A stretch of DNA of 64,000 bases from assembly GCA_039583875.1 (NCBI GenBank), contig CM077153.1:117300568-117364567 (forward strand), given 5' to 3'. Source of the stretch: Platanthera guangdongensis. Taxonomy: Eukaryota > Streptophyta > Magnoliopsida > Asparagales > Orchidaceae. The notes beneath the pieces are model-generated. The model searched no databases. It had not been told where the DNA came from and saw only the letters and a list, made by a program, of their open reading frames with translations. Position 1 is the first letter of the stretch; each line of letters starts with the position of its first letter. Positions 7,233 to 62,415 of this stretch are shown piece by piece. Made by a program: the position numbers and the translations under genes.

Positions 7233-7256
7233 ATGGCGCCAAAGAAGAACGCAAGG
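7233..7256 (+). CDS. gag: Candidate gag mini-exon in T2 LTR (MAPKKNAR)
   Basis: Eight codons are followed by a GT donor (AAGG|GTAACG, GT at 7257-7258). The gag frame at 8764 begins directly after TAG with GTG ACC and has no ATG. Joining 7256 to 8764 gives MAPKKNAR followed by VTRSG in one frame and removes a 1507-nt intron containing the primer site. The same arrangement is in T3 and T4. Splicing is inferred from sequence only. Confidence 0.65.
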
Positions 7257-13019: not shown

Positions 13020-15331
13020 TGTAACGCCCCGAAACTCAAAATAGCGAAGGGGGACGTTTTGGGCCAGTTTTGGGTTCTGGCAGGAGGCACACGGCCTGGG
13101 ACACGGGCGTGTCCCAAGGCGTGTCAAGCTTGTGTCGACACTCAGCCGGCGAAGTTGACATTTTGCTCTCGACATTGCGTCGAGACTGGGCACACGGCCT
13201 GCGACACGGGCATGTCGCAGGGCGTGTCGACCCGTGTCGACACTCAGACCGCGAAGTCGACACTCTGCGCTCGACGAAGTGTAGAGACATGGCACACAGC
13301 CTGCGACACGGGCGTGTCTACCCGTGTCTACACTCGTCCCGGGGAGTCGACGAGCTTTGCTCGACGATGTGTCGAGACAAGGCACACGACCTAGGACACG
13401 GGCGTGTCCAAGGCCGTGTCGTTAGGTCGACGATATTTGCTCGACGAAGTGTCGAGTGTCGAGACCCTGTACACGGCCTGGAGCCCAGGCATGTTGAGGT
13501 AGACACGGGAAAGGACACAGGCGTGTCCTAGAACCCGTACAGTGCTCGGGTTGTTTTCGGGGAAAATCGATGGGGGTACACGGCTGGCCACACGGCCATG
13601 TCAGGTGGAACATGGGTGTGTCAGGTCGAACACGGGCATGTTCGATGCCTGTGTGTTGTTCCAGGTGAGTCTAATTTGACGGCGAATGAGGCACACGGCC
13701 CTGGACACGGGCGTGTGCCAGGCCGTGTGCGATCCAGATTGGACATTTTAGCCCTGAATCAAAGTCGTTCGTTTCTTTAATTGATGATCCAACGGCTGGG
13801 GGTTGTTCTTGATGGGATATACCCGGGATTGGGCCTTAGAAACCCTCACTTTTCATGAGTTGTTATCTTTCTAAAGCTTAGAGAGAGAGGAGAGCCAAGG
13901 AAGGAAGAAGAAGCTAGATCCGGCCATTGGAGGAGCTTCGAAGCTCCAAATCGCGAGCCGACTCCGGATCCACGGAGGCAAAGCTAGTGCGGTGCTTTTC
14001 ATCTGCTTACTTTTCCATGGCGCCAAAGAAGAACGCAAGGGTAACGACCCTCTTCTTGAGCATGTTAAGCTCTACTTCTTTTGCAAAAGGGAAGCCCGCT
14101 CTCGCGAGTTTGCGGTGAGTTGGAGGCGTTCCTTCAGGTAGATATGAATAGTCCCCATTGTTAGAGTCCGTAAGCGAGAACGGACATAGGCATGTTGTGT
14201 GAAGCCTACCCGGACATGTTGGTCTGGATCACTGATGTTGCATTGCATAAATGCCGGAGAAGACTCTGTGCGATTGGTTGTTTTTCGGGTTTTCTACGTG
14301 GTAGATTGCAACAGGGAGCCTTGGGGACTAACCCTAAGGTGCACCCGGAAAACTGGGCGATGTGTGATCTTGCCAACATGGAGGCCTGAGAGCCAACTTG
14401 AACATAACCGAGTTATGTGAAATTATGTGACGAAAATGGGACTCGGGAGACGTTTGACCTGCTCATATGGCTTACATTGTCATTGCGACGTGAGCACGGG
14501 TTAGATGGAACCGTACCCATTTCTATGTCGTTCTGGTTAAAGAGACCTAAGGTTACGTGGCACTTGTCGTCAGCATAGATGAGAGTCTTCGGCGGTCTAT
14601 GGCTTAAATTGTCGTGACCCATGCCGGGAAAACAAATTGCTCATATGTTTGGTCGTCCAAGTGGCGGTGGTGGGTCCGGAATGTCTATGGCTTTAACTGA
14701 CGTGACATCGACCGGTTCACCGAGAATGTGCCATGAGTGCACGGGGTGTGTGGCCGTTTGAGCCTACGCCTGTGATGAAATGAATATTATTATATTGCTC
14801 GCTTGTGCTAATAAAATTGCAGGGAAGGAGCATCGCCGCCCCGAGTTGGGGGCAGGATCGTTATAATTTGGTCAGCATTGCTGACATTTGCCTTTTTGTT
14901 TGCCACCGTGCGCCGGTTATGTTGCTTGCAGGTGCTGCTGGACCAAGCGGTCAATAGCTGGCTAAAGCCCAAATTGCGAAGCCGGCCCTTGAAGGCCTAG
15001 TTGGAGTGTTTACTATTTTATTCATGTATGACCGGCCTGCGTGCCGTTATTTGTAAAACATGTAATATCAAGTGAACAATTTTGTAAGGCCTTAAGGCTT
15101 GTACTGGTGTATGTATAACATTCCTATTTGGTATTAGTGGACATTCATGCTTTAGTGTTGGGTTCTTTATTGTAACTTATATAAACTGCTTCCGCTAGAA
15201 TGCTATGTGTAGGACGTTATGATTAGTTGGATGGTTTCCATGAGTAACCACCCGGTCTGTCTGTGGCATACGGCGTCGGGCCCCGGCCGGACCTACTGCT
15301 ATATGCTATGCGACGGATAGGAGGTGTTATA
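13020..15331 (+). repeat. T2 3' LTR
   Basis: Begins TGTAACGCC after the purine tract AAGAGGGGGAGAGT. It repeats the 5' LTR layout, including the motif array (13085-13730), mini-exon copy 14017-14040 and hairpins 14836-14855 and 14870-14886. The second hairpin has lost its closing C. The LTR is about 20 bp longer than the 5' copy because of small array indels. Confidence 0.95.
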
Positions 15332-15667
15332 GAAGGTATCAGGCAGTGCTTCTCAGCTCCTAGAACTCCCCAACAAAATGGGGTTGCTGAAAGGAAAAAT
15401 AGGACACTCATTGAAGCTGCAGGCACATTATTGGCAGATGCTTACATGCCTCTATCCTTTTGGGCAGAAGATGTAAACACTGCTTACTATGTCCTGAATA
15501 GAAGCCTTATACATAAGCTAAAAAATAAGATCCCCTATGAATTACTTAAAGGGAAGAACCTAAAATCACATACTTTAAAGTTTTTGGTTGTATATGTTAC
15601 ATTCACACTAATAACAAAAGATACATTAGAAAGTTTGAGGCTAAGGTTGAAGAAGGGATTTTTCTAG
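15332..15667 (+). pseudogene. pol: Sirevirus B integrase, 3' half
   Basis: The frame resumes across the GAAGG duplication with IRQCFSAPRTPQQNGVAERK; the Glu of VAERK is the third catalytic residue of the integrase core. FWAEDVNTAYYVLNR follows, as in other copia integrases. The frame is lost after LKF at about 15580 by a small indel and picks up in another frame at about 15668 as [13 protein letters not shown]. Confidence 0.9.
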
Positions 15668-17652
15668 GATACTCCCAAGTAAGAAAGGCCTATAGGGTTT
15701 TCAATAAATCATCTCTTAAAATTGAAGAAACTGTCCATGTATCTTTTGATGAAGCTAACATGTCTTATAAGGAGAAAGAGATTTCTAGCAATAGCTTTTT
15801 GCAAGTTCCACAACTGTGTGAGTCTATGGATGGACTAAACCTTACCCAAGAGGTGTCAACCCATCCTACTCCACAGGTTGCTGAAGACAGTGAAGAAGAA
15901 CTTCAAGTGGAAGTGGCTGAACTTCCCTCAACAGCTAGTACCATTCCACAAGAGGAATTAAATACAGAAGCTGTTGCTGAACAAACTCCACCAACTTATC
16001 TTGTCACACTTAAAGATCACCCCAGATCTCAAGTGATTGGAGACATTTCAGTAGGTGTACAGACAAGATATCAACTTAATCAAGACTTGTTGCATGCCTG
16101 TTTTCTCTCTCAAATTGAACCTCTCACCATCCATGAAGCTGGTCAAGATCCCCACTGGATCTTTGCAATGCAAGAGGAACTAAATCAGTTTGAGAGATGT
16201 AGAGTTTGGGATTTCGTTCCAAGACCCCATAACTACCCAGTTATTGGAACCAAATGGGTCTACAAGAACAAGCAAGATGCTCAAGGGAACATAGTGAGAA
16301 ACAAGGCTAGGCTTGTTGCTAAAGGCTACAGGCAAGAGAAAGGAATTGATTATGAACAAACATTTGCCCCTGTTGTAAGGTTAGAGGCCATAAGAATATT
16401 CCTTGCCTATGCAGCTCACAGGAGATTCAAAGTGTTCCAAATGGATGTCAAAAGTGCATTTCTGAATGGAGTGCTTCAAGAAGAGGTTTATGTAGAACAA
16501 CCTCCAGGTTTTATCTCTCTAACTCAACCCTCTTTTGTATTAAAATTGCATAAAGCTCTCTATGGTTTAAAGCAAGTTCCAAGAGCTTGGTATGAGACCT
16601 TAGCAAGCTTTCTTTTAGAGCATAAATTTAAAAGAGGAACCATAGATAAAACTCTTTTCACTAGAAGTCATAAGGACCAAATTTTGTTAGTACAAATATA
16701 TGTGGATGAGATCATTTTTGGATCTACTGATCCCAAATTATGCAAGAGGTTTGCTGACCTCATGCATTCTAAATTTGAGATGAGTAGCATGGGTGAGCTT
16801 TCCTACTTTCTTGGTCTTCAAGTGAAGCAGCTCCCTGATGGTATCTTCCTCTCCTAAGATAAGTATGCTAAAGAGCTTATTAGGAAGTTTGGGATGGGTG
16901 ATGCTTCAGGAATGAAAACACCTATGACTACTAATGCTATTGTGGATTCTGATGCAGCAGGGAAACCTGTAGATCAGAAACATTATAGGGCAATTGTTGG
17001 ATCCCTATTATACCTAACAGCTAGCAGACCTGATATATTGTTTGTCACATGCCTTTGTGCTAGGTTCCAAGTGAACCCTAAAGAATCTCACCTTATTTTC
17101 TTAAAAATAATTTTGAGATATATAAAGAGTTGTCCTAATCTAGGACTCTGGTATCCTGCAGAGTCATAGTTTGAGTTAACTGGATACTCAGATGCTGACT
17201 ATGTTGGATGTAGAGTGGACAGGAAGAGTACCTCTGGAACTTGCCAGTTCCTGGGTATGAGACTTGTCTCCTGGTTTTGTAAAAAGCAAACATCTTTGTC
17301 TACATCAACTGCAGAAGCAGAATACATGACTGCTGGCAGCTGCTGTTCACAAATGTTATGGATACAAAACCAACTCCTAGAATATGGTGTTAACTTAAAT
17401 AATTCAACATTATTTTGTCATAATACTAGTATTATTGCTATAGCACAGAATCCAGTTCACCATTCTAGGACTAAGCATATTGAAATAAGACATCATTTCA
17501 TTAGAGATAATATAGACAAAAAGAAAATTAACTTAATCCATATTTCTACTGATTTACAGAGAGCAGACATTTTCACCAAACCCTTGGATGAGAAAACTCA
17601 TCTGTTCTTTATAAATCAACTGGGTATGATTAATGGAGAAGAGTTAAATTAG
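15668..17652 (+). pseudogene. pol: Sirevirus B reverse transcriptase and RNase H
   Basis: Copia-type reverse transcriptase: [25 protein letters not shown] and [12 protein letters not shown] are present (about 16235-16480). The catalytic box at 16699-16710 reads YVDE instead of YVDD, losing one metal-binding Asp. Stops at 16855 and 17167 break the frame. RNase H has GYSDADYVGC, STSTAEAEYM and the final TKPL motif (17180-17590). The pol stop is TAG at 17650-17652. The env-like ORF is about 400 bases downstream in another frame, so simple read-through cannot link them. Confidence 0.92.
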
Positions 17653-27800: not shown

Positions 27801-27824
27801 ATTGCTCCAAAGAGAACTTCAAGG
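27801..27824 (+). pseudogene. Gag mini-exon relic in G1 LTR
   Basis: ATT GCT CCA AAG AGA ACT TCA AGG then GTAACG. Codon for codon this matches the T2/T4 mini-exon (M)APKRTSR, with the ATG decayed to ATT. Confidence 0.6.
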
Positions 27825-37975: not shown

Positions 37976-37999
37976 ATGGCACTGAAGCGATCTTCAAGG
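37976..37999 (+). CDS. gag: Candidate gag mini-exon in T3 LTR (MALKRSSR)
   Basis: ATG plus seven codons, then donor GT at 38000-38001 (AAGG|GTAACG). The acceptor is AG at 39810-39811 (TCACCTATAG). Joining gives MALKRSSR followed by AT*SGAGQS, where the stop is a decayed Arg codon in the VTRSG motif. The implied intron is 1812 nt. Confidence 0.6.
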
Positions 38000-43578: not shown

Positions 43579-44586
43579 TGTAACACCCTAGTTTTGCAAG
43601 AGGTTCATTCTGCAGTTCTGGAAAAATTTTTGGGTTTCTGGCAGGAGGCACACGGCCTGCGACACAGGCATGTCGCAGGGCGTGTCGAGGCCGTGTAGAC
43701 ACTCGGCCCAAGTGTCGACACTTTCGCTCGACAAAGTGTCGAGAGTGGGGCACACGGCCTGCGACACGGGCGTGTCGCAGGGCGTGTCGAGGCTGTGTCG
43801 ACACTCGGCCCAAGTGTCGACACTTTCGCTCGACAAAGTGTCGAGAGTGTGGCACACGGCCTGTGACACGGGCGTGTCACAGGGCGTGTCGAGGCCGTGT
43901 CGACACTCGTACCAAGTGTCGACACTTTTGCTCGACAGGGCGTCGAGACTGGGGCACACGGCCTGTGATATGGGCGTGTCACAGGGCGTGTCCAGCTTGG
44001 TCGATGATCTTCGCTCGACGTTTTTCCGCGGTGTCGACACAAAGCCTGTCGACGGGTGTCGAGACTTGGCACACGGCTTGGGACACGGGCGTGTCCCAGG
44101 CCGTGTCATCTCTCGGGTTGGTTTCAGGGCCGTGTTGTTGGAGGCACACGGCCGGCCACACGGCCGTGTCACTGGGGACACGGGCGTGTCGGGTTGAACA
44201 CGGGCGTGTCTGATGCCCGTGTGCGATTCCAGGCGCGTCGATTTGAGACGGCGAATGAGGCACACGGCCCTGGACACGGGCGTGTGCCAGGCCATGTTCG
44301 GCCCAGATTTTCTATTTTCCAGGCGAATCGCGGCCACTCTTTTCCTGGTTTTGGGATCTAACGGTTCAGGCCATCTCCTGGGAAGTTAAGTCCGATTTTA
44401 GGGTTGGAAACACTCATTTTGTTTTCCAAGTCTTCTCTTTCTAAGTTCTTGAGAGAAACTAGAGCAAGGAGGAAGGAGAAGAAGGTCTTGGGCTGTAGGG
44501 AGAGTTTCGGTGCTCCAAATCGCGAACCGAGTCCGGATCCGTGAAGCTTAGATCGTTGCGAAGATTTCCATCCGGCTATTTTTGTC

Positions 44587-44610
44587 ATGGCAAGGAAGAG
44601 GAGTCGGAAG
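44587..44610 (+). CDS. Gag mini-exon in solo LTR S1 (MARKRSRK)
   Basis: ATG plus seven codons followed by AAG|GTAACG. It has the same length, basic composition and donor as in the other four Tekay families, though the codons differ. Nothing is downstream for it to splice to now. Confidence 0.5.
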
Positions 44611-47138: not shown

Positions 47139-48092
47139 TGTAACACCCCAAAGCCCAGAATTTGGCAAAATTTGGGTGACACGGCCTGGGACACGGGCGT
47201 GTCCCACGGCGTGTCCTTCTCGGGTGAGTAGTCGACGAGTGGTCGACAAAACTTCGGTCGATGATTATCGAGTGTAGAGTACACGGGCGTGTCACAGGGC
47301 GTGTCCTTGCGGTCGACGAACTCAGCCCGATGAAGTTGAGCTGGGGCGTGTCTAGTGCTGTGTATGGGCACACGGCCTAGGACACGGGCGTGTCACAGCC
47401 CGTGTGCCTCTCGGGTTAATCTCGATGTTGTGTCGCCTGAAGAACACGGCTACAGACACAGGCGTGTCTGTAGGCGTGTCAGGTGACACGGCCCGTGACA
47501 CGAGCGTGTCACATGGGCGTGTCACTGGATTGGATAAGTCGGTTGAGCACCGCTTGAGGTACACGGCCTGGGATACGGGCGTGTCACAGGCCGTGTCAGG
47601 AAAAAATTGAGATTTTGTGGCAAAATTGTGGCCGTCCGTTCCTTCAGCTGGGATCCAATGGTTGAGCTTCCTCCCTGCTTCCTTAAGGCCGAGACTTGAG
47701 AAGGAAAGACTCATGTTATTCTTGCCTTCATCTTTCTACAAGTTAGAGAGAGAAAGGGATAGGAAGAAGGAGGAGGAGGAAGTGGAGCTGGTCACCGGTG
47801 GTGCTGCGAGATTCCGACAAGAGATCTGAGGCCATCTTTGCGGAGAAAAAGTTGTTGCGGTTCTTTCTAGCCATTTAGGAGCTCATGGCACTGAAGCGGT
47901 CTTCAAGGGTAACGACCTTTCTTCCTAGACATATGATGGCTTCCTTTTTAGCATAGGCATATGATTCCCCCACCAGAGGGTAGCTGATTATGGAAGTCTT
48001 TTGGGTTGATTCATGGAATCCCCAATCATTTGGCATATATATCCGGAAATGGAGTACGGAATAGGCATGTTGTGTGAAGCACATCTGGACAG

Positions 48093-52951: not shown

Positions 52952-53014
52952 TGTAACGCCCCGAAACTCAAAGGAGCAAAGGGGGACGTTTTGGGCCAGT
53001 TTTGGTTTCTGGCT

Positions 53015-53660
53015 GAAAGCACACGGCCTGGGACACGGGCGTGTCCCAGGGCGTGTCAAGCGTGTGTCGACACTTAGCCGCGAAGTCGTCGAGTTATTCT
53101 CGACGATTCGTCGAGAATGGGCACACGGCCTGCGACACGGGCGTGTCGCAGGGCGTGTCGACCCGTGTCGACACTTAGCCGTGAAATCGTCGAGTTATTC
53201 TCGACGATTCGTCGAGAATGGGCACACGGCCTGCGACACGGGCGTGTCGCAGGGCGTTTCGACCCGTGTCGACGATCGTCTAGGTGAAATCGTCGAGATT
53301 CACTCGACGATCGTCGAGACAAGGCACACGGCCTAGGACACGAGCGTGTCCAAGGCCGTGTCATCCAGTCGTCGTTCTCCCCTCGACGAAATGCCCCGTG
53401 TACACGGTCTGGGGGCCCAGGCGTGTCAATGTGACACGGGCAAGGACACGGGCGTGTCCTAGAACCCGTGCAGTGCTCGGGTTGGAAACGGGGGAAAATC
53501 ATGGGGTACACGGCCGGCTACACGGCCGTGTCATCTGGAACACGGGCATGTCAACTTGAACACGGGCGTGTTCGATACCCGTGTGCGTGTTCAGAAGATT
53601 CGATTTTGACGGCGAATGCGGCACACGGCCCTGGACACGGGCGTGTGCCAGGCCGTGTTC
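53015..53660. repeat. GACACGGGCGTGTC and TCGACGA array in T4 LTR
   Basis: Two near-identical ~125-bp periods start at about 53023 and 53109, and a third partial period follows. Each combines CACACGGCCTG, GACACGGGCGTGTC, GTGTCGACACTTAGCC and GTCGTCGAGTTATTCTCGACGATTCGTCGAG-type inverted parts. The long minus- and plus-strand ORFs here are by-products. Confidence 0.9.
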
Positions 53661-53945
53661 GGCCCAGATTGGGCATTTCAGCCCCGAATCAAAGCCGCTC
53701 GTTTTCTTAGGTTGAGATCCGACGGCTGGGGATGGTTCCTGGGAGGATATACACGGGTTTGACTTAAGAAAAATCCATTTTCCTTCACTTGATCATCTCT
53801 CCAAACCCTTGGAGAAAGAGGAAAGCTATTGGAGGAAGAAGAGCTAGATCCGCCATTGGAGGAGCTTCGGAGCTCCGAATCGCAAGCCGACTCCGGATCC
53901 ACGGAGGCAACGCAAGCGCGGTGATTTCTATCCGATTACATTTCG

Positions 53946-53969
53946 ATGGCGCCAAAGAGGAACGCAAGG
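53946..53969 (+). CDS. gag: T4 gag-pol exon 1 (LTR mini-exon, MAPKRNAR)
   Basis: ATG in an ATGGCG context is followed by eight codons in all, then AAGG|GTAACG with GT at 53970-53971. The gag frame at 55465 begins immediately after TAG and lacks an ATG for its first 58 codons, although those codons are conserved in T2 and T3. Joining 53969 to 55465 gives one frame: ...NAR then VTRSGVG. The predicted 1495-nt intron removes the LTR end and primer site, so spliced RNA would serve only as mRNA. ATG, codon number and donor recur in T2, T3 and S1; G1 keeps all but the ATG (ATT). It is inferred, not shown by RNA. Confidence 0.75.
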
Positions 53970-55243
53970 GTAACGATCCTCACTTGTGAGCATGATAGCT
54001 CTCTTTCTTAGCATAGGAAGCCCTCTCTCGCGAGTTTGCGAAGAGTTGGAGGCGTTCCTTCGGGTAGATATGTAAAGTCCCCGTTGTTTAGCGTCCGTAT
54101 GCGAGAACGGACATAGGCATTTTGGTTGAAGCCTACCCGGACATGTAGTTCGGATCGGTGATGTTGCATTGCATAAGGCCGGAGAAGACTCCGTGCTATT
54201 GGGTGTTTTTCGGGTTTTCTACGCGGTAGATTGCAGCAGGGAGCCTTGGGGACTAACCCAAAGGTGCACCCGGAAAACTGGGCGGACACGAGGTCTTGCC
54301 AACTTGGTGGCTTGGAAGCCAACTTGAACATAACCGGGTTATGTGACTTGTGATGAAAATGGGACTCGGTAGAAGTTTGACCTGCGCATATGGTTTAAAT
54401 TACCGTTGCGGGCGCATATGGTTTAAACTACCGTTGCGTTGTGAGCACGGGTTAGATGGAACCGTACCCACTCTATGTCGTTCGGATTAGGGCCGTTGGC
54501 ATAGATGAGGGTCTTCGGCGGTCTATGGTTTTAATTACCGTGACCCATGCCAGGAAGACAAACTGCTCATTGTTTGGCCGTCCAAGAGAGGATGGCGGTG
54601 AGTCGGCAGACTTAGACTGCGTTCACCAAGAATGTGCCCTGAGTGCACGGGGTGTGTGGCCGTTGAGCCTCCGCCTGTGATGAAATGACTATATTTATAA
54701 TGCTCGCTTATGCTGATGAAATGCAGGGAAGGAGCATCGCCGCCCCGAGTTGGGGGCGGGATCGTTATAATTTGATCAGCATTGCTGACCGTTGCTTTGT
54801 TTGCCACCGTGCGGTGGTTTGTTTGCTTGCAGGTGCAGCTGGACCGAGCGGTCAATAGCGGGCTAAAGCCCTTTTTGCGAAGCTGGCCCTCGAAGGCCCA
54901 AGTGTAATGTTTTCTATTTTTATTCATGTATGGCCGGCCTGCGTGCCGAGGTTGGTAAATCATGTAACAGACAAGTGAAACTTTTTGTAAGGCCTTAAGG
55001 CTAATGTTTGGGTATTTTTGTAATAACATTCCTATTGTCATGTTAGTGGACATTCGTGCTCTTATGCTGGGTTCTTGTTTACAACTTATATTAACTGCTT
55101 CCGCTAGAATGCTCTGTGTAGGACGTTGAGATTGGTTGGATGGTTTCCATAAGTAACCACCCGGTCTGTCTGTGGTATATGGCGTCGGGCCCCGGCCGGA
55201 CCTACTGCTATATGTTATGCGACGGATAGGGGGTGTTACAATT

Positions 55244-55255
55244 TGGTATCAAAGC
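55244..55255 (+). other. Primer binding site (T4)
   Basis: TGGTATCAAAGC differs from the initiator tRNA-Met complement TGGTATCAGAGC at one base; it starts three bases after the LTR. Confidence 0.9.
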
Positions 55256-55464
55256 CAGGTTTTGGTCGGGCTTAAACGGAATTCGTGGTCGAATTCTTTT
55301 TAAGGGGTGGTGAGCACATTGTGTGCGTCATCGTTATAATGGTAAAAGAACCCATGAATGTCCACTTAGGAATGAAAATACTCGTGTTTGAGGAACCTGC
55401 GTGTTCCTATAATTGCTGTTTGCAATGTTATTTGGTCGCTTAACGGTGTTTTGTACCACTATAG

Positions 55465-56608
55465 GTGACCCGAAGTGGTGTTGGGCCGTCAGAACGCCGA
55501 GGTTCTGATGCTAGTAGTGCACCAGAAGTTGCTCCCGCAACACCTTTGTCGGCTGAAAATATAAGATTGGTGGCTGAAGCGGTGTTGGCCGTGATCAATG
55601 CGCAGCCTGGGAGGCAAGCGCAGCAGCCAGCTCCTGTGATGGAGCAAGTACCTCTTCAAGAGGCTGAGCCGAGGAGGGTGGAGCAAGTGGTTGTGGAACC
55701 ATTAGTGCCAAGGAGGGCAACTGAGAGGCAGTTGAAGCATGTAATGAGCTTTAACCCTCCGTTATTCTCGGGGTTGGGAACCCCATCGCAAGCTGAAGAC
55801 TGGCTCTCTAGGGTGAAGCGAGTCATGACAGCGACGGAGACGGAGGAGTGGCAAATGACCACCATCGCTACGTTCCTTATGGATGGGGAAGCGAGGATGT
55901 GGTGGGAAGGTTTGGAGCTGCATCATTTGAGAGGTAGACAACTGATAGACGTTCCGATGGAAGAGTTCTCGGAATTGTTCTTAGCAAGATACCTCCCTTC
56001 TACTCAGAGGATTTCAATGGAGAATGAGTTCCTGAAGTTGGTGCAGGGTGAGAGGAGCGTGGATGAATATCTCCACGAGTTTACGCGGTTGAGTCGTTAT
56101 GCTAGCTCCATCATCATGGATGAGGAGCGCAAGACTAATCGTTTCTACGAAGGTCTGAGGGATGAGCTGAGACTATTACTGTCGGGGCCGATGACGCAGG
56201 GTTTCTTAACCTTGGTCAATACTGCCCGGTCCTTGGAGAAGGACATGAAGAGTGTACAAGCAAAGAAAGGCTTGGGCGAGAAGAAATCTGGGTTCAAAGT
56301 GCCGACTACTTCAAAGTCTGGCTATCAAAGATTCTTTAAGAAGCATAGGACTTCGGGTCCAGCTCCTTCTGGTGCTTCTGGGGCGACTACGAGTCGGACC
56401 CCGGGCGCGTGCTTCACTTGTGGCAAGACGGGGCATTTCGCCCGTGATTGTTGGAGCGGACATCCTAAGTCCGAAAGGAGGCCAGGAGCTACCTACGAAG
56501 AGAAGGGAAAGGCGGTGGAGTCGACCGCATCTCACTATGCTCCGGCCCAACCAAGGGTTTACAATCTTGGCCAACAGGAGGCCATTAAACAATCTGACGT
56601 GGTGACAG
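55465..56608 (+). CDS. gag: T4 gag-pol exon 2: Gag
   Basis: Encodes the capsid and nucleocapsid of a Tekay chromovirus. The first part is acidic and Pro/Ala-rich. The capsid domain runs from ERQLKHVMSFNPPLFSG through AEDWLSRVKRVM, WWEGLELHHL, LARYLPSTQR and EYLHEFTRLSRYA to RFYEGLRDELRLLL. A Lys-rich linker leads to one CCHC knuckle, CFTCGKTGHFARDC (56410-56451). Unspliced, the frame stops at TAA 56617-56619; spliced at 56608 it continues into protease. The GTG at 55465 directly follows a TAG, so no upstream in-frame start exists in the contiguous DNA; the first internal Met codon is at 55639. Exon 1 in the LTR solves this. Confidence 0.85.
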
Positions 56609-56684
56609 GTACGGCTTAATTTATAGCAAGTCAATTCCTTTATATGCTTGTTATGTATATGTTACCTTACCACTGCTTGTTTAG
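56609..56684 (+). other. T4 gag-pol intron (76 nt)
   Basis: ACAG|GTACGG at the donor and CTGCTTGTTTAG|GA at the acceptor; T-rich, with CTTAC-like branch candidates near 56665. Removal joins ...DVVT through G to FVMICENP in frame. Coding conservation with T3 covers exactly the flanks. Without removal, gag and pol are in different frames and separated by a stop. Confidence 0.7.
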
Positions 56685-59600
56685 GATTTGTAATGATTTG
56701 TGAAAATCCCGCTCGAGCACTCTTCGATACGGGAGCTTCACACTCCTTCTTGTCCGAAGGATTTATATCACGCATCGGAGTCCCTTCTTCGATGGCGAAG
56801 GATAAGTTGGATGTGTTGTTGCCCAATGGGTGTTCGATGCGAGCGGTTAGGATCTGCGATGTTAAGACTCGTATTGGAGAGCAGGAGTTCGACCTGCGGG
56901 CGTCTTTACTTCCGTTAGTGGAGTTCGATGTCATATTTGGCATGGACTGGCTCTCGGAGCAGCAGGCCCATATAGATTGCGGTAGCAAGGAAGTCAAGCT
57001 GGGAGCGAGTCGTGAGACGACTTTTACGGGCTTAAAGGGGTCGAGCAAGACGTCGATGTCTGCTCTTCAGGTGGTAAAGGCGGTTCGTGCTGGAGCAGAA
57101 CTGTTCTTTACACTAGTGGAGGTTGCAAAGCCGAAGCCCGCGTTGGATTGTATTTCAGTGGTATCGGAATACCCTGATGTGTTCCCCGCAGATCTTCCTG
57201 GAGCCCCGCCTCAACGGGAGATAGATTTTACGATCGAGCTAGTGCCAGGTGCAAAGCCTGTGTCACGATCTCCGTATCGGTTAGCGCCTAAGGAAATGGC
57301 GGAGCTGAAAGTTCAACTGCAAGAGTTGTTGGAACAAGGGTATGTGCGCCCGAGTTCTTCGCCTTGGAGCGCACCGGTCCTCTTTGTTAAGAAGAAGGAC
57401 GGAAGCTTGAGATTATGTATTGATTATCGGGAGCTAAACAAGCTGACTGAGAAGAATAAGTACCCGATCCCCCGGATTGATGATCTCTTCGATCAGTTAG
57501 TCGGGTCGACGGTGTACTCGAAGTTAGATCTCAAGTCTGGGTACTATCAGCTACGGATAAGGGAGAGTGATATCCCGAAGACAGCGTTTAGTACGAGATA
57601 CGGGCATTATGAGTTTACGGTCATGCCGTTTGGGCTGACTAATGCGCCGTCAGTATTCATGGATTTGATGAACAGAACGTTCAGGGAGTACTTGGACCAT
57701 TTCGTGATCGTCTTCATCGACGATATTTTGGTGTACTCGCAAAGTGAGGAAGATCACTTCAAGCATCTTCATTTGGTGTTGGAGACGCTAAGAAGAAACC
57801 AGTTGTATGCCAAGTTCTCGAAGTGCGAGTTTTGGCTATCCTCAGTAGCGTTCCTCGGGCATATAGTGAGTGGAGAGGGTATTGCGGTGGATCCGGCGAA
57901 GATTGTTGCGATACGGGAGTGGCCTGAGCTAGCTACGGTAGCAGAAGTCCGGAGCTTTTTGGGGCTTGCCGGTTATTATAGGCGCTTCGTAGAGAACTTC
58001 TCGCGGATAGCGCTACCTCTCACTACTTTGACGAGGAAGGAGCATAAGTTCGTTTGGACGCCGGAGTGCGCGCGAGCTTTTGAGGAATTGAAGTGTCGGT
58101 TGACCACGGCGCCTGTGTTGAGTTCGCCGGTTGGGACCGAAGGCTATGAGATATATAGCGATGCTTCAGGCAGCGGTTTGGGTTGTGTGCTACTGCAGCA
58201 CGGAAGCGTGATAGCTTATGGCTCGAGACAGCTAAAAGTGCACGAGAGGAATTATCCGGTCCATGACTTGGAGTTAGCGGCCGTGATTTTTGCCTTGAAG
58301 CTGTGGAGACACTATTTGTACGGTGTGAAGATTGATATCTACACCGATCACAAGAGCCTAAAGTATTTGATTGATCAGAAGGATCTGAATATGCGGCAGC
58401 GTAGATGGATGGAGTTCTTAGGGGACTATACATTCAAGATCCACTACGTGCCTGGCAAAGGGAATGCGGTTGCGGACGCGTTGAGTCGTCGAGCCCCAGC
58501 TCAAGCGAATTGGCTATCAGTGCATGATGAGCGGTTGGTGCAGGAGCTGGAGGCGTTGGAGATTGTTTGTGTGGATAGACAATCCAGTTCTGAAGCAGTG
58601 CTGAATTGGACTGAAGTCCAATATGACCTGGCTGATCGGATTCGGCAGGCTTTGGATATGGATGCTCGTATGAAGCAATTCATGATAGAGGCTCTGGATG
58701 GGTCAAATTCCCAATTCGTCGTGGAGGACGGATTGCTGTGGAAAGACGGTCGTTTGTGCGTCCCAAGTGTGGGCAATTTACGGGTGGAGTTGTTGTACGA
58801 AGCACACCATACTAAGTACTCGATTCACCCGGGGAGCACGAAGATGTACCGCGATATCAAGAAACTGTTTTGGTGGCCAGGCTTGAAAAGGGATGTGGCG
58901 CTATATGTAGCGAAGTGCCAAACTTGCGCCTTGGTAAAGGCGGAGTGCCAAAAGCCGGGAGGATTTCTTAAGTCCTTGCCTATTCCGGAGTGGAAATTCG
59001 ACGACATCTCTATGGACTTTGTGCATGGTTTGCCAAGGTCGCAGAAGGGGAACGACGCCATTTGGGTGGTGGTCGATCGATTAACGAAGGTGTCGCATTT
59101 TATTCCGCATAGGAAGGACGATCCGGTGGAGAAGCTGGCGAAGCTCTATGTGGATAACATAGTGCGGCTTCATGGTGTGCCCCGCAGCATCGTGAGTGAC
59201 CGAGATGGGCGGTTCACGTCCAATGATTGGAGGCTGGTGCAGCAAATGTTGGGAACAAAGCTGAAGTTTAGCACAGCCTTCCATCCGCAAACGGATGGGC
59301 AGACCGAGAGGGTCAATAGAACCATGGAAGACATGCTTCGCATGTGTGTTTTGGACTTTGGAAAGCAATGGGAGGACCACCTTTATTTAGTGGAGTTCGC
59401 ATACAACAACAGCTACCAAGCAAGTATTCAGATGGCGCCTTTCGAGGCCCTATATGGTAGAAGATGTCGCACGCCGTTGTCTTGGTTAGAAACGGGCGAG
59501 TCGAAGTTGTATAAGCGATCGGAAGTGGATGATGCTACTTCTTTGGTGAGAACCATTCGGGAGAGGTTACTCATCGCTCAGGACCGGCAAGCAAAGTACT

Positions 59601-60091
59601 ATAATGCCAAGCACAGGAACGTGGAGTTCGCTGTGGGTGATTATGTGTACCTAAAGATCAAGCCGTTCAAGGGTGTCTCGCGGGTGCGACGATTGAAAAA
59701 GCTAAGCCCGAGGTACCTTGGACCGTTTGAGGTTCTGGAGCGAGTTGGAGAAGCGGCCTATAGGTTGAAGCTTTCTGTGGAGCTAAGTGGTTTACACGAT
59801 GTATTCCACATTTCGGTGCTTCGGAAGGCGGTGCAAGAGCCTACGCAAGTGATCGCGGTCGATCAAGTGCCGGTGGATAGTGGGCTAACGACAAAGGTAA
59901 AGCCCGTGCGGATTGAGGACTCGGAGGTCAAGCGGCTACGCAATAAAGAGATCAGGATGGTCAAGGTCCGATGGGACAATTGCGGTCGTGAGGAGCTCTC
60001 CTGGGAGCGAGAGCAGACTATGCTTGACGAGTATCCGGAGTTGTTCCGCTCAGGTACAAATGTTGTTTTTGTATATCTTTCCTTTATGTAA
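56685..60091 (+). CDS. pol: T4 gag-pol exon 3: protease, RT, RNase H, integrase, chromodomain
   Basis: An uninterrupted frame of about 1,135 codons. Protease [11 protein letters not shown] (Asp near 56726). Reverse transcriptase: [38 protein letters not shown] and catalytic FIDD at 57713-57724. RNase [46 protein letters not shown] (58148-58490). Integrase: HHTKYSIHP with [11 protein letters not shown]; catalytic Asp 59014, Asp 59198 and Glu 59306. GPY/F motif [11 protein letters not shown] (about 59702). C-terminal chromodomain (59880-60045) with [19 protein letters not shown], which in chromoviruses guides integration to marked chromatin. No stops or shifts. Together with exons 1-2 the gene is 4,575 nt, an exact codon multiple. 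Confidence 0.95.
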
Positions 60092-60126: not shown

Positions 60127-62415
60127 TGTAACGCCCCGAAACTCAAAGGAGCAAAGGGGGACGTTTTGGGCCAGTTTTGGTTTCTGGCTGAAAGCACACG
60201 GCCTGGGACACGGGCGTGTCCCAGGGCGTGTCAAGCGTGTGTCGACACTTAGCCGCGAAGTCGTCGAGTTATTCTCGACGATTCGTCGAGAATGGGCACA
60301 CGGCCTGCGACACGGGCGTGTCGCAGGGCGTGTCGACCCGTGTCGACACTTAGCCGTGAAATCGTCGAGTTATTCTCGACGATTCGTCGAGAATGGGCAC
60401 ACGGCCTGCGACACGGGCGTGTCGCAGGGCGTGTCGACCCGTGTCGACGATCGTCTAGGTGAAATCGTCGAGATTCACTCGACGATCGTCGAGACAAGGC
60501 ACACGGCCTAGGACACGGGCGTGTCCAAGGCCGTGTCATCCAGTCGTCGTTCTCCCCTCGACGAAATGCCCTGTGTACACGGTCTGGGGGCCCAGGCGTG
60601 TCAATGTGACACGGGCAAGGACACGGGCGTGTCCTAGAACCCGTGCAGTGCTCGGGTTGGAAACGGGGGAAAATCATGGGGTACACGGCCGGCTACACGG
60701 CCGTGTCATCTGGAACACGGGCGTGTCAACTTGAACACGGGCGTGTTCGATACCCGTGTGCGTGTTCAGAAGATTCGATTTTGACGGCGAATGCGGCACA
60801 CGGCCCTGGACACGGGCGTGTGCCAGGCCGTGTTCGGCCCAGATTGGGCATTTCAGCCCCGAATCAAAGCCGCTCGTTTTCTTAGGTTGAGATCCGACGG
60901 CTGGGGATGGTTCCTGGGAGGATATACACGGGTTTGACTTAAGAAAAATCCATTTTCCTTCACTTGATCATCTCTCCAAACCCTTGGAGAAAGAGGAAAG
61001 CTATTGGAGGAAGAAGAGCTAGATCCGCCATTGGAGGAGCTTCGGAGCTCCGAATCGCAAGCCGACTCCGGATCCACGGAGGCAACGCAAGCGCGGTGAT
61101 TTCTATCCGATTACATTTCGATGGCGCCAAAGAGGAACGCAAGGGTAACGATCCTCACTTGTGAGCATGATAGCTCTCTTTCTTAGCATAGGAAGCCCTC
61201 TCTCGCGAGTTTGCGAAGAGTTGGAGGCGTTCCTTCGGGTAGATATGTAAAGTCCCCGTTGTTTAGCGTCCGTATGCGAGAACGGACATAGGCATTTTGG
61301 TTGAAGCCTACCCGGACATGTAGTTCGGATCGGTGATGTTGCATTGCATAAGGCCGGAGAAGACTCCGTGCTATTGGGTGTTTTTCGGGTTTTCTACGCG
61401 GTAGATTGCAGCAGGGAGCCTTGGGGACTAACCCAAAGGTGCACCCGGAAAACTGGGCGGACACGAGGTCTTGCCAACTTGGTGGCTTGGAAGCCAACTT
61501 GAACATAACCGGGTTATGTGACTTGTGATGAAAATGGGACTCGGTAGAAGTTTGACCTGCGCATATGGTTTAAATTACCGTTGCGGGCGCATATGGTTTA
61601 AACTACCGTTGCGTTGTGAGCACGGGTTAGATGGAACCGTACCCACTCTATGTCGTTCGGATTAGGGCCGTTGGCATAGATGAGGGTCTTCGGCGGTCTA
61701 TGGTTTTAATTACCGTGACCCATGCCAGGAAGACAAACTGCTCATTGTTTGGCCGTCCAAGAGAGGATGGCGGTGAGTCGGCAGACTTAGACTGCGTTCA
61801 CCAAGAATGTGCCCTGAGTGCACGGGGTGTGTGGCCGTTGAGCCTCCGCCTGTGATGAAATGACTATATTTATAATGCTCGCTTATGCTGATGAAATGCA
61901 GGGAAGGAGCATCGCCGCCCCGAGTTGGGGGCGGGATCGTTATAATTTGGTCAGCATTGCTGACCGTTGCTTTGTTTGCCACCGTGCGGTGGTTTGTTTG
62001 CTTGCATGTGCAGCTGGACCGAGCGGTCAATAGCGGGCTAAAACCCTTTTTGCGAAGCTGGCCCTCGAAGGCCCAAGTGTAATGTTTTCTATTTTTATTC
62101 ATGTATGGCCGGCCTGCGTGCCGAGGTTGGTAAATCATGTAACGGACAAGTGAAACTTTTTGTAAGGCCTTAAGGCTAATGTTTGGGTATTTTTGTAATA
62201 ACATTCCTATTGTCATGTTAGTGGACATTCGTGCTCTTATGCTGGGTTCTTGTTTACAACTTATATTAACTGCTTCCGCTAGAATGCTCTGTGTAGGACG
62301 TTGAGATTGGTTGGATGGTTTCCATAAGTAACCACCCGGTCTGTCTGTGGTATATGGCGTCGGGCCCCGGCCGGACCTACTGCTATATGTTATGCGACGG
62401 ATAGGGGGTGTTACA
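60127..62415 (+). repeat. T4 3' LTR
   Basis: 2289 bp. Differences from the 5' LTR seen at the equivalents of 53257, 53343, 53396, 53548, 54775, 54832, 54859 and 54968, seven of them transitions or CpG-related. Mini-exon copy 61121-61144; hairpins 61915-61934 and 61949-61965, with the second hairpin perfect here, whereas the 5' LTR has one mismatch. Confidence 0.96.

Follow-up and report, generated by a model that had tools for sequence, protein, structure and literature searches.

A candidate first coding exon within the long terminal repeat, a putative first intron and a second intron in Tekay-like retrotransposons of Platanthera guangdongensis

Introduction

How one RNA can serve both as messenger and as genome is an old question for long terminal repeat (LTR) retrotransposons. 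It is raised again by a stretch of 64,000 nucleotides (nt) from the orchid Platanthera guangdongensis (GenBank assembly GCA_039583875.1, contig CM077153.1, positions 117,300,568 to 117,364,567, forward strand), hereafter the window, in which the retrotransposons T2, T3 and T4 carry a gag gene that opens directly after a TAG. Where the start codon of this gag lies is the question pursued here. We read the elements as chromovirus retrotransposons, presumably Tekay-like by their gag, protease, reverse transcriptase (RT), RNase H and integrase order and primer site, with two introns, the first of them putative. In the model that we hold to be very likely, a 24-nt exon within the LTR bears the start codon, a first intron bears the primer binding site, and a second intron sets the output of Gag and Gag-Pol. 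The roles of messenger and genome here seem to be physically split.

Results

Anatomy of element T4 and position of exon 1

The anatomy of T4, the only one of the three elements that is open throughout gag, is read from the DNA as follows.

52952 to 55240, + strand: 5′ LTR, bearing exon 1 and the donor of intron 1 (LTR pair comparison).
53946 to 53969, + strand: exon 1, 24 nt, translation MAPKRNAR (pattern and codon analyses).
53970 to 55464, + strand: putative intron 1, 1495 nt, GTAACG...TATAG, with 40 ATGs, including the LTR end and the primer binding site (splicing deduced from DNA).
55244 to 55255, + strand: primer binding site core TGGTATCAAAGC, just past the 5′ LTR and inside intron 1.
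55465 to 56608, + strand: exon 2, from gag to the second donor, beginning VTRSGVG (open frame; Retrotrans_gag and zinc knuckle).
56609 to 56684, + strand: intron 2, 76 nt, GTACGG...TTTAG, with an in-frame TAA at 56617 to 56619 (exact loss in loci L021 and L022; 72 junction copies).
56685 to 60091, + strand: exon 3, pol, with protease, RT, RNase H, integrase and a C-terminal chromodomain-like stretch (open frame, Pfam).
60127 to 62415, + strand: 3′ LTR, with a second copy of exon 1 at 61121 to 61144 (LTR pair comparison).

Pfam matches place gag, protease, RT, RNase H and integrase of T4 in Ty3/gypsy order, and the C-terminus of the integrase yields a Chromo match (E 8.4e-4, 19.6 bits) below the Pfam cut-off of 25.1. 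The two LTRs of T4 are 99.65% identical, with 8 differences in 2289 positions, none of which falls in exon 1. Further copies of the 24-mer, each followed by GTAACG, are found in other LTRs of the window.

7233 to 7256, + strand: exon 1 in the 5′ LTR of T2, MAPKKNAR, with a 3′ LTR copy at 14017 to 14040.
37976 to 37999, + strand: exon 1 in the 5′ LTR of T3, MALKRSSR, with a 3′ LTR copy at 47885 to 47908; codon 3 of the T3 gag is a stop.
44587 to 44610, + strand: exon 1 of LTR S1, MARKRSRK; S1 is located within T3.
27801 to 27824, + strand: remnant of exon 1 in LTR G1, with ATT for ATG.

In total, five LTR types and eight LTRs carry the 24-mer together with GTAACG, and GGTAACGA is unchanged throughout the alignment of these eight. 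The positions given for the five types in a preliminary description of the window, including the ATT of G1, were all recovered.

Abundance, length and codon constraint of exon 1

Published repeats of P. guangdongensis are mostly LTR elements (PMC9023349). Across the 4.25 Gb of the host genome, the pattern ATGGCN{17,21}GGTAACG matched 66,269 times (33,043 + 33,226), compared with 346 matches (163 + 183) for the reversed-pattern control. Among the 100 matches listed, the exon measured exactly 24 nt in 96, 23 nt in three and 26 nt in one. The 96 listed copies of 24 nt comprise 54 distinct sequences, most of which translate as MA, then P or R, K, R. A second search anchor, which did not demand the ATG, gave 17,288 genome matches compared with 4 for its control; an ATG stood exactly 24 nt before the donor at 97 of the 100 sites listed (43 of 46 distinct), the remaining sites having ATA in two cases and one extra base in one. 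The spacer directly upstream varies, measuring 8, 11, 12 or 15 nt at listed sites with ATG at −24. A subfamily fixed for ATA in place of ATG was considered and set aside, as it came down to a single match and is probably decay. Three evenly spaced exon copies on the same strand (G000:C1:3077716, 3085091 and 3092469) suggest tandem elements sharing an LTR.

Codon-type conservation of the 24 nt, which the preliminary description had named as a check, was examined in pairs that differ by one base, drawn from 52 of the 54 distinct 24-mers after exclusion of two unrelated-looking ones. A synonymous excess appeared in the predicted frame only, with 19 of 33 pairs synonymous compared with 31% expected from opportunity; the two remaining frames gave 6 of 33 and 4 of 33. 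The second sample, from the ATG-free anchor, gave 11, 3 and 2 synonymous pairs of 23 by frame. The p values for the predicted frame (0.0014 and 0.05, respectively) are rough, since one-base pairs are not independent, and the point of the test is the contrast between frames rather than these values. This contrast points to a codon-like constraint on exon 1.

Putative junction of exon 1 with gag across intron 1

The gag frame of T4 begins at 55465, immediately 3′ of TAG, and the homologous gag codons of T2 (8764) and T3 (39812) are likewise preceded by TATAG, which bears out the opening of gag as first described. The accompanying claim, that the frame joined to exon 1 is continuous in all three elements, held for the phase, which agrees in T2, T3 and T4, but not for the length of the frame, as only T4 is open through gag; T2 has a stop after codon 68 and T3 a TAG at codon 3 (AT*SG). 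The primer-site core TGGTATCA follows the LTR end in each of the three and is presumably of the Met-tRNA type.

Beyond the window, 20 elements with the exon present in both LTRs were fetched, a set biased toward well-kept copies. By a simple rule, 14 of these 20, spread over three subfamilies, have a gag that begins at an AG and is in phase 0 to exon 1; exon and gag pair as MAPKR..R with VTRSG, MAPKRTTR with AARSG, and MAPKRSSR with VTRSG. S1-type elements pair MARKRSRK with SASNEAG, with an acceptor AG in two of three. In the rule-passing elements, T2 to T4, L021 and L022, putative intron 1 spans 1481 to 1812 nt and contains 33 to 62 ATGs. The corresponding stretch of the S1-type element L018 (625 to 3645) measures 3021 nt, compared with about 1.7 kb in its two sister elements, and therefore contains an insertion. 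In 23 of 25 sequences, no ATG occurs within the 162 to 330 nt that precede the exon. The first in-frame Met of gag is codon 59 in T4-type elements; elsewhere it is codon 23, 35 or 43, or a later one in some damaged copies, so that no early gag start is shared.

The LTR-borne first coding exon that the preliminary description had put forward agrees with the phase, the constant length, the codon constraint, the donor, the acceptor, the position of the primer site within the intron and the absence of an early Met common to all gag copies. Together, these features support a 24-nt exon spliced to gag, and we infer the removal of intron 1 from the arrangement of the DNA. Two exact-match patterns for the exon-exon junction of intron 1, covering VTRSG- and AARSG-type gag starts, returned 0 genomic copies. 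Set against tens of thousands of LTRs and 72 copies without intron 2 (below), this is expected if loss of intron 1 removes the primer site, and is consistent with splicing rather than proof of it. In the short elements L033 and L034, exon copies lie about 4.0 kb apart; both have LTRs, exon 1 (MAPKRSSR) and a match to gag, and are too short to contain pol. These two loci are gag-only, non-autonomous derivatives that retain the LTR exon.

Intron 2 at the gag-pol junction

A second intron, overlooked in the preliminary description, lies between gag and pol. In T4 it is preceded by CAG and contains 43% T, and the three exons (24 + 1144 + 3407 nt) add up to 4575 nt, a multiple of 3. In the T4 sequence, Gag stops if intron 2 is kept, and Gag-Pol forms a single frame if it is removed. 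The open frame is exactly 384 amino acids long in all but two of the 107 scored gag copies nearest T4. The two exceptions, L021 and L022, read through into pol; precisely intron 2 is missing from them, and exon 1 and intron 1 are retained. Genome-wide, the exact intron 2 junction is found in 72 copies and the reversed pattern in 0, and the donor-side intron pattern in 7,182. A tree of 28 gag copies, of which 16 have intron 2 and 12 lack it, requires 9 changes in its presence, at least 7 of them forced by well-supported branches; recombination between copies could reduce the number of loss events. Ten further copies without intron 2 have exon 1 intact in seven cases and the primer-site core in nine, L032 having neither within the fetched stretch. 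Because the losses are exact and repeated at GT...AG ends, they indicate that intron 2 is spliced and that RNA spliced there has been a template of reverse transcription. A programmed frameshift at the gag-pol junction had been entertained and was rejected once the intron 2 pattern and the exact losses emerged.

A donor rule for intron 2 was applied to 25 loci in which both flanks matched. It held in 16, and in 14 of these a frame-joining acceptor lies 71 to 91 nt from the donor. Such acceptors occur in T4-type, MAPKRTTR, MAPKRSSR and S1-type elements. L001 and T2 are without a frame-joining acceptor, and the other nine loci are either intron-less (L021, L022) or fail the rule.

Annotated proteins and other species

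The annotated polyprotein P0007 of P. guangdongensis begins MTRSGAG, with Met at the first gag codon, where window elements have Val; this is possibly a contiguous start or an artefact of the model. A protein search with the N-terminus of P0007 gave matches in two Platanthera proteins only, and the gag search returned one relative. The P. zijinensis gene models P0004 to P0006 may use the same acceptor; they were rejected as proof of intron 1, given the non-exon residues before VTRSG. Other Tekay-like polyproteins among the returned proteins have a contiguous initial Met, and the start is at times similarly basic, as in Tanacetum (MAPKRTTRKRPG), in melon (MPPRRGARRGG) and within P0057 (MGRNPRITRSAD). 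As such basic starts are contiguous there, they suggest that the intron interrupted an older N-terminus, which is a lead and not a test.

Other features of the window

The 5′ parts of LTRs, at 53019 to 53362 and 43647 to 44107, contain imperfect repeats, each about 100 nt long, in which palindromes resembling GACACGGGCGTGTC are frequent. A Ty1/copia-type RT frame adjoins T2 at 15550 to 16857.

Discussion

Proposed mechanism

We propose that the LTR contains the transcription start, at a point 5′ of the 24-nt exon. Removal of intron 1 would fuse the LTR-borne ATG and seven mostly basic codons to gag and make Gag translatable, in an RNA that, without the primer binding site, could not be copied. 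RNA retaining intron 1 would be copyable, its exon ATG giving a short dead-end frame followed by dozens of ATGs before gag, and full Gag would not be expected from it. In the translated RNA, intron 2 would then set the ratio of products: if retained, its in-frame stop would end Gag, and if removed, gag and pol would be read as one frame. Up to four RNAs may exist, namely unspliced (genome), spliced at intron 1 (Gag), doubly spliced (Gag-Pol), and spliced at intron 2 only. The last would be replicable and represented by the 72 junction copies. It seems probable to us, with somewhat less assurance than for the two-intron architecture, that the genomic RNA is no messenger for Gag, that removal of the primer-site intron is obligatory and makes the two RNAs mutually exclusive, and that optional intron 2 replaces frameshifting as the switch. 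The preliminary description had envisaged separate pools for translation and replication; copies of RNA spliced at intron 2 do exist and copies spliced at intron 1 were not found with the two patterns, which agrees with this view; separate pools made by splicing were already known, in another form, from BARE1.

Weighing of the evidence

Several observations weigh against this reading. The acceptor rule fails in 6 of the 20 fetched elements, of which three are S1-type and three (L003, L010 and L015) are damaged at this place, and the S1-type element L007 has AAA instead of AG before AGT. In L012 and L015, two of the 25 sequences, an ATG precedes exon 1 by 25 nt. Intron 1 is barely T-rich (29.8% compared with 22.2% in exon 2), and its donor GTAACG is without the usual G at +5. 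The absence of intron 1 junction copies would also fit with no splicing, and the residues preceding VTRSG in the P. zijinensis models are not those of the LTR exon. In the alignment of 8 LTR types, 70 of 1236 windows, the exon window counted, are equally or more conserved. Within this alignment the exon window shows no change of length, as is true of 182 of the 1236 windows. LTR-wide conservation was dropped as proof of exon 1, being too weak by itself, and the case rests on the codon pattern and the constant distance from ATG to donor.

A different use of the 24 nt would be as the start of a regulatory upstream open reading frame (ORF) in unspliced RNA, with Gag translation beginning at an internal AUG or at a codon other than AUG. 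In its favour, unspliced RNA does carry a short frame that begins at the exon ATG, and such ORFs are used in pararetrovirus leaders (as outlined in PMC5902531). However, the length of this unspliced frame is not fixed (16 to 56 codons, and 4 in the broken L015), whereas that from ATG to donor is; moreover, gag starts with GTG in some subfamilies but with GCA in another, and its first Met is not at a constant codon. We consider this explanation unlikely. A still smaller chance is given to the idea that the exon is kept for another splice, in LTR-driven transcripts reaching downstream exons of the host, or of the element outside gag. The exon is indeed present in 3′ and solo LTRs as well, yet codon constraint and phase agree with gag in several subfamilies, and selection for host fusions would presumably not extend to tens of thousands of copies. 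Equally improbable is a pattern without selection, produced by recent amplification of few sources. Many copies are near-identical and other LTR windows are equally conserved, as this would predict, but the diversity of the listed copies (54 distinct 24-mers in 96), the frame-specific synonymous excess and the fixed exon length next to a variable spacer argue against it. The two-intron architecture with an LTR start exon is the reading that we retain.

Implications

If the model is true, translatable RNA is without the primer site, RNA with the primer site is without a usable gag start, and these would be the first LTR retrotransposons in which an intron precedes gag and an exon within the LTR supplies its start codon. 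Intron 2, in turn, appears to set the ratio of Gag to Gag-Pol. A single genome holds the system in tens of thousands of LTRs, each of which would then be a portable promoter with a first coding exon, capable of phase-0 splicing onto host exons; nearby genes may acquire a start codon from solo LTRs. Such elements will be misread wherever annotation looks for an ATG beside gag.

Comparison with known systems

No LTR-borne gag start exon and no Tekay introns were announced in the titles and abstracts searched, among which subscription literature was thinly covered, and we found no earlier description of a two-intron architecture with an LTR start exon. Spliced LTR retrotransposons as such are known. 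In BARE1 (Ty1/copia, barley), splicing likewise gives separate Gag and replication RNA pools in a plant LTR retrotransposon; its intron, in contrast, is a 104-nt segment of the coding region whose removal shifts the frame and leaves Gag only, and its gag start codon lies in the leader rather than on an LTR exon (PMC3735527). Ogre (Ty3/gypsy, Tat) resembles intron 2, as an intron of the polyprotein gene is removed in some transcripts to give the full polyprotein (PMC6317226). The same joining of two polyprotein parts by intron removal is seen here in the 72 junctions and in the joined frames of L021 and L022. Ogre is, however, a separate lineage, and no intron ahead of its gag was known (PMC1142308).

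The shGAG transcript of EVADE (Ty1/copia, Arabidopsis) provides Gag from spliced RNA, with Gag-Pol from the full-length RNA; splicing there removes the protease and ends Gag, whereas here the retention of intron 2 ends Gag (PMC12786077). In addition, the start codon of the orchid elements is proposed to require the removal of intron 1. ORF IV of RTBV, a plant pararetrovirus, is comparable in its leader, where a short ORF with a donor is spliced to a distal ORF; its product is P4 and not Gag, there is no LTR, and the unspliced RNA yields coat protein and RT (PMC5902531). In foamy viruses, one of the gag and pol products also depends on spliced RNA instead of a frameshift, but there Pol is the spliced product and Gag comes from full-length RNA (PMC7828637). 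For Diaspora (Ty3/gypsy, soybean), sequence prediction alone places splice donors within the LTR and acceptors close to the beginning of gag, and gag there retains its own start codon (PMC1142308). Long LTRs and a Met-tRNA primer site, much as in the orchid elements, are reported for the Tekay clade, which includes Bongo of beet; unlike in the orchid elements, the description there gives gag and pol as a single uninterrupted ORF (PMC3605345).
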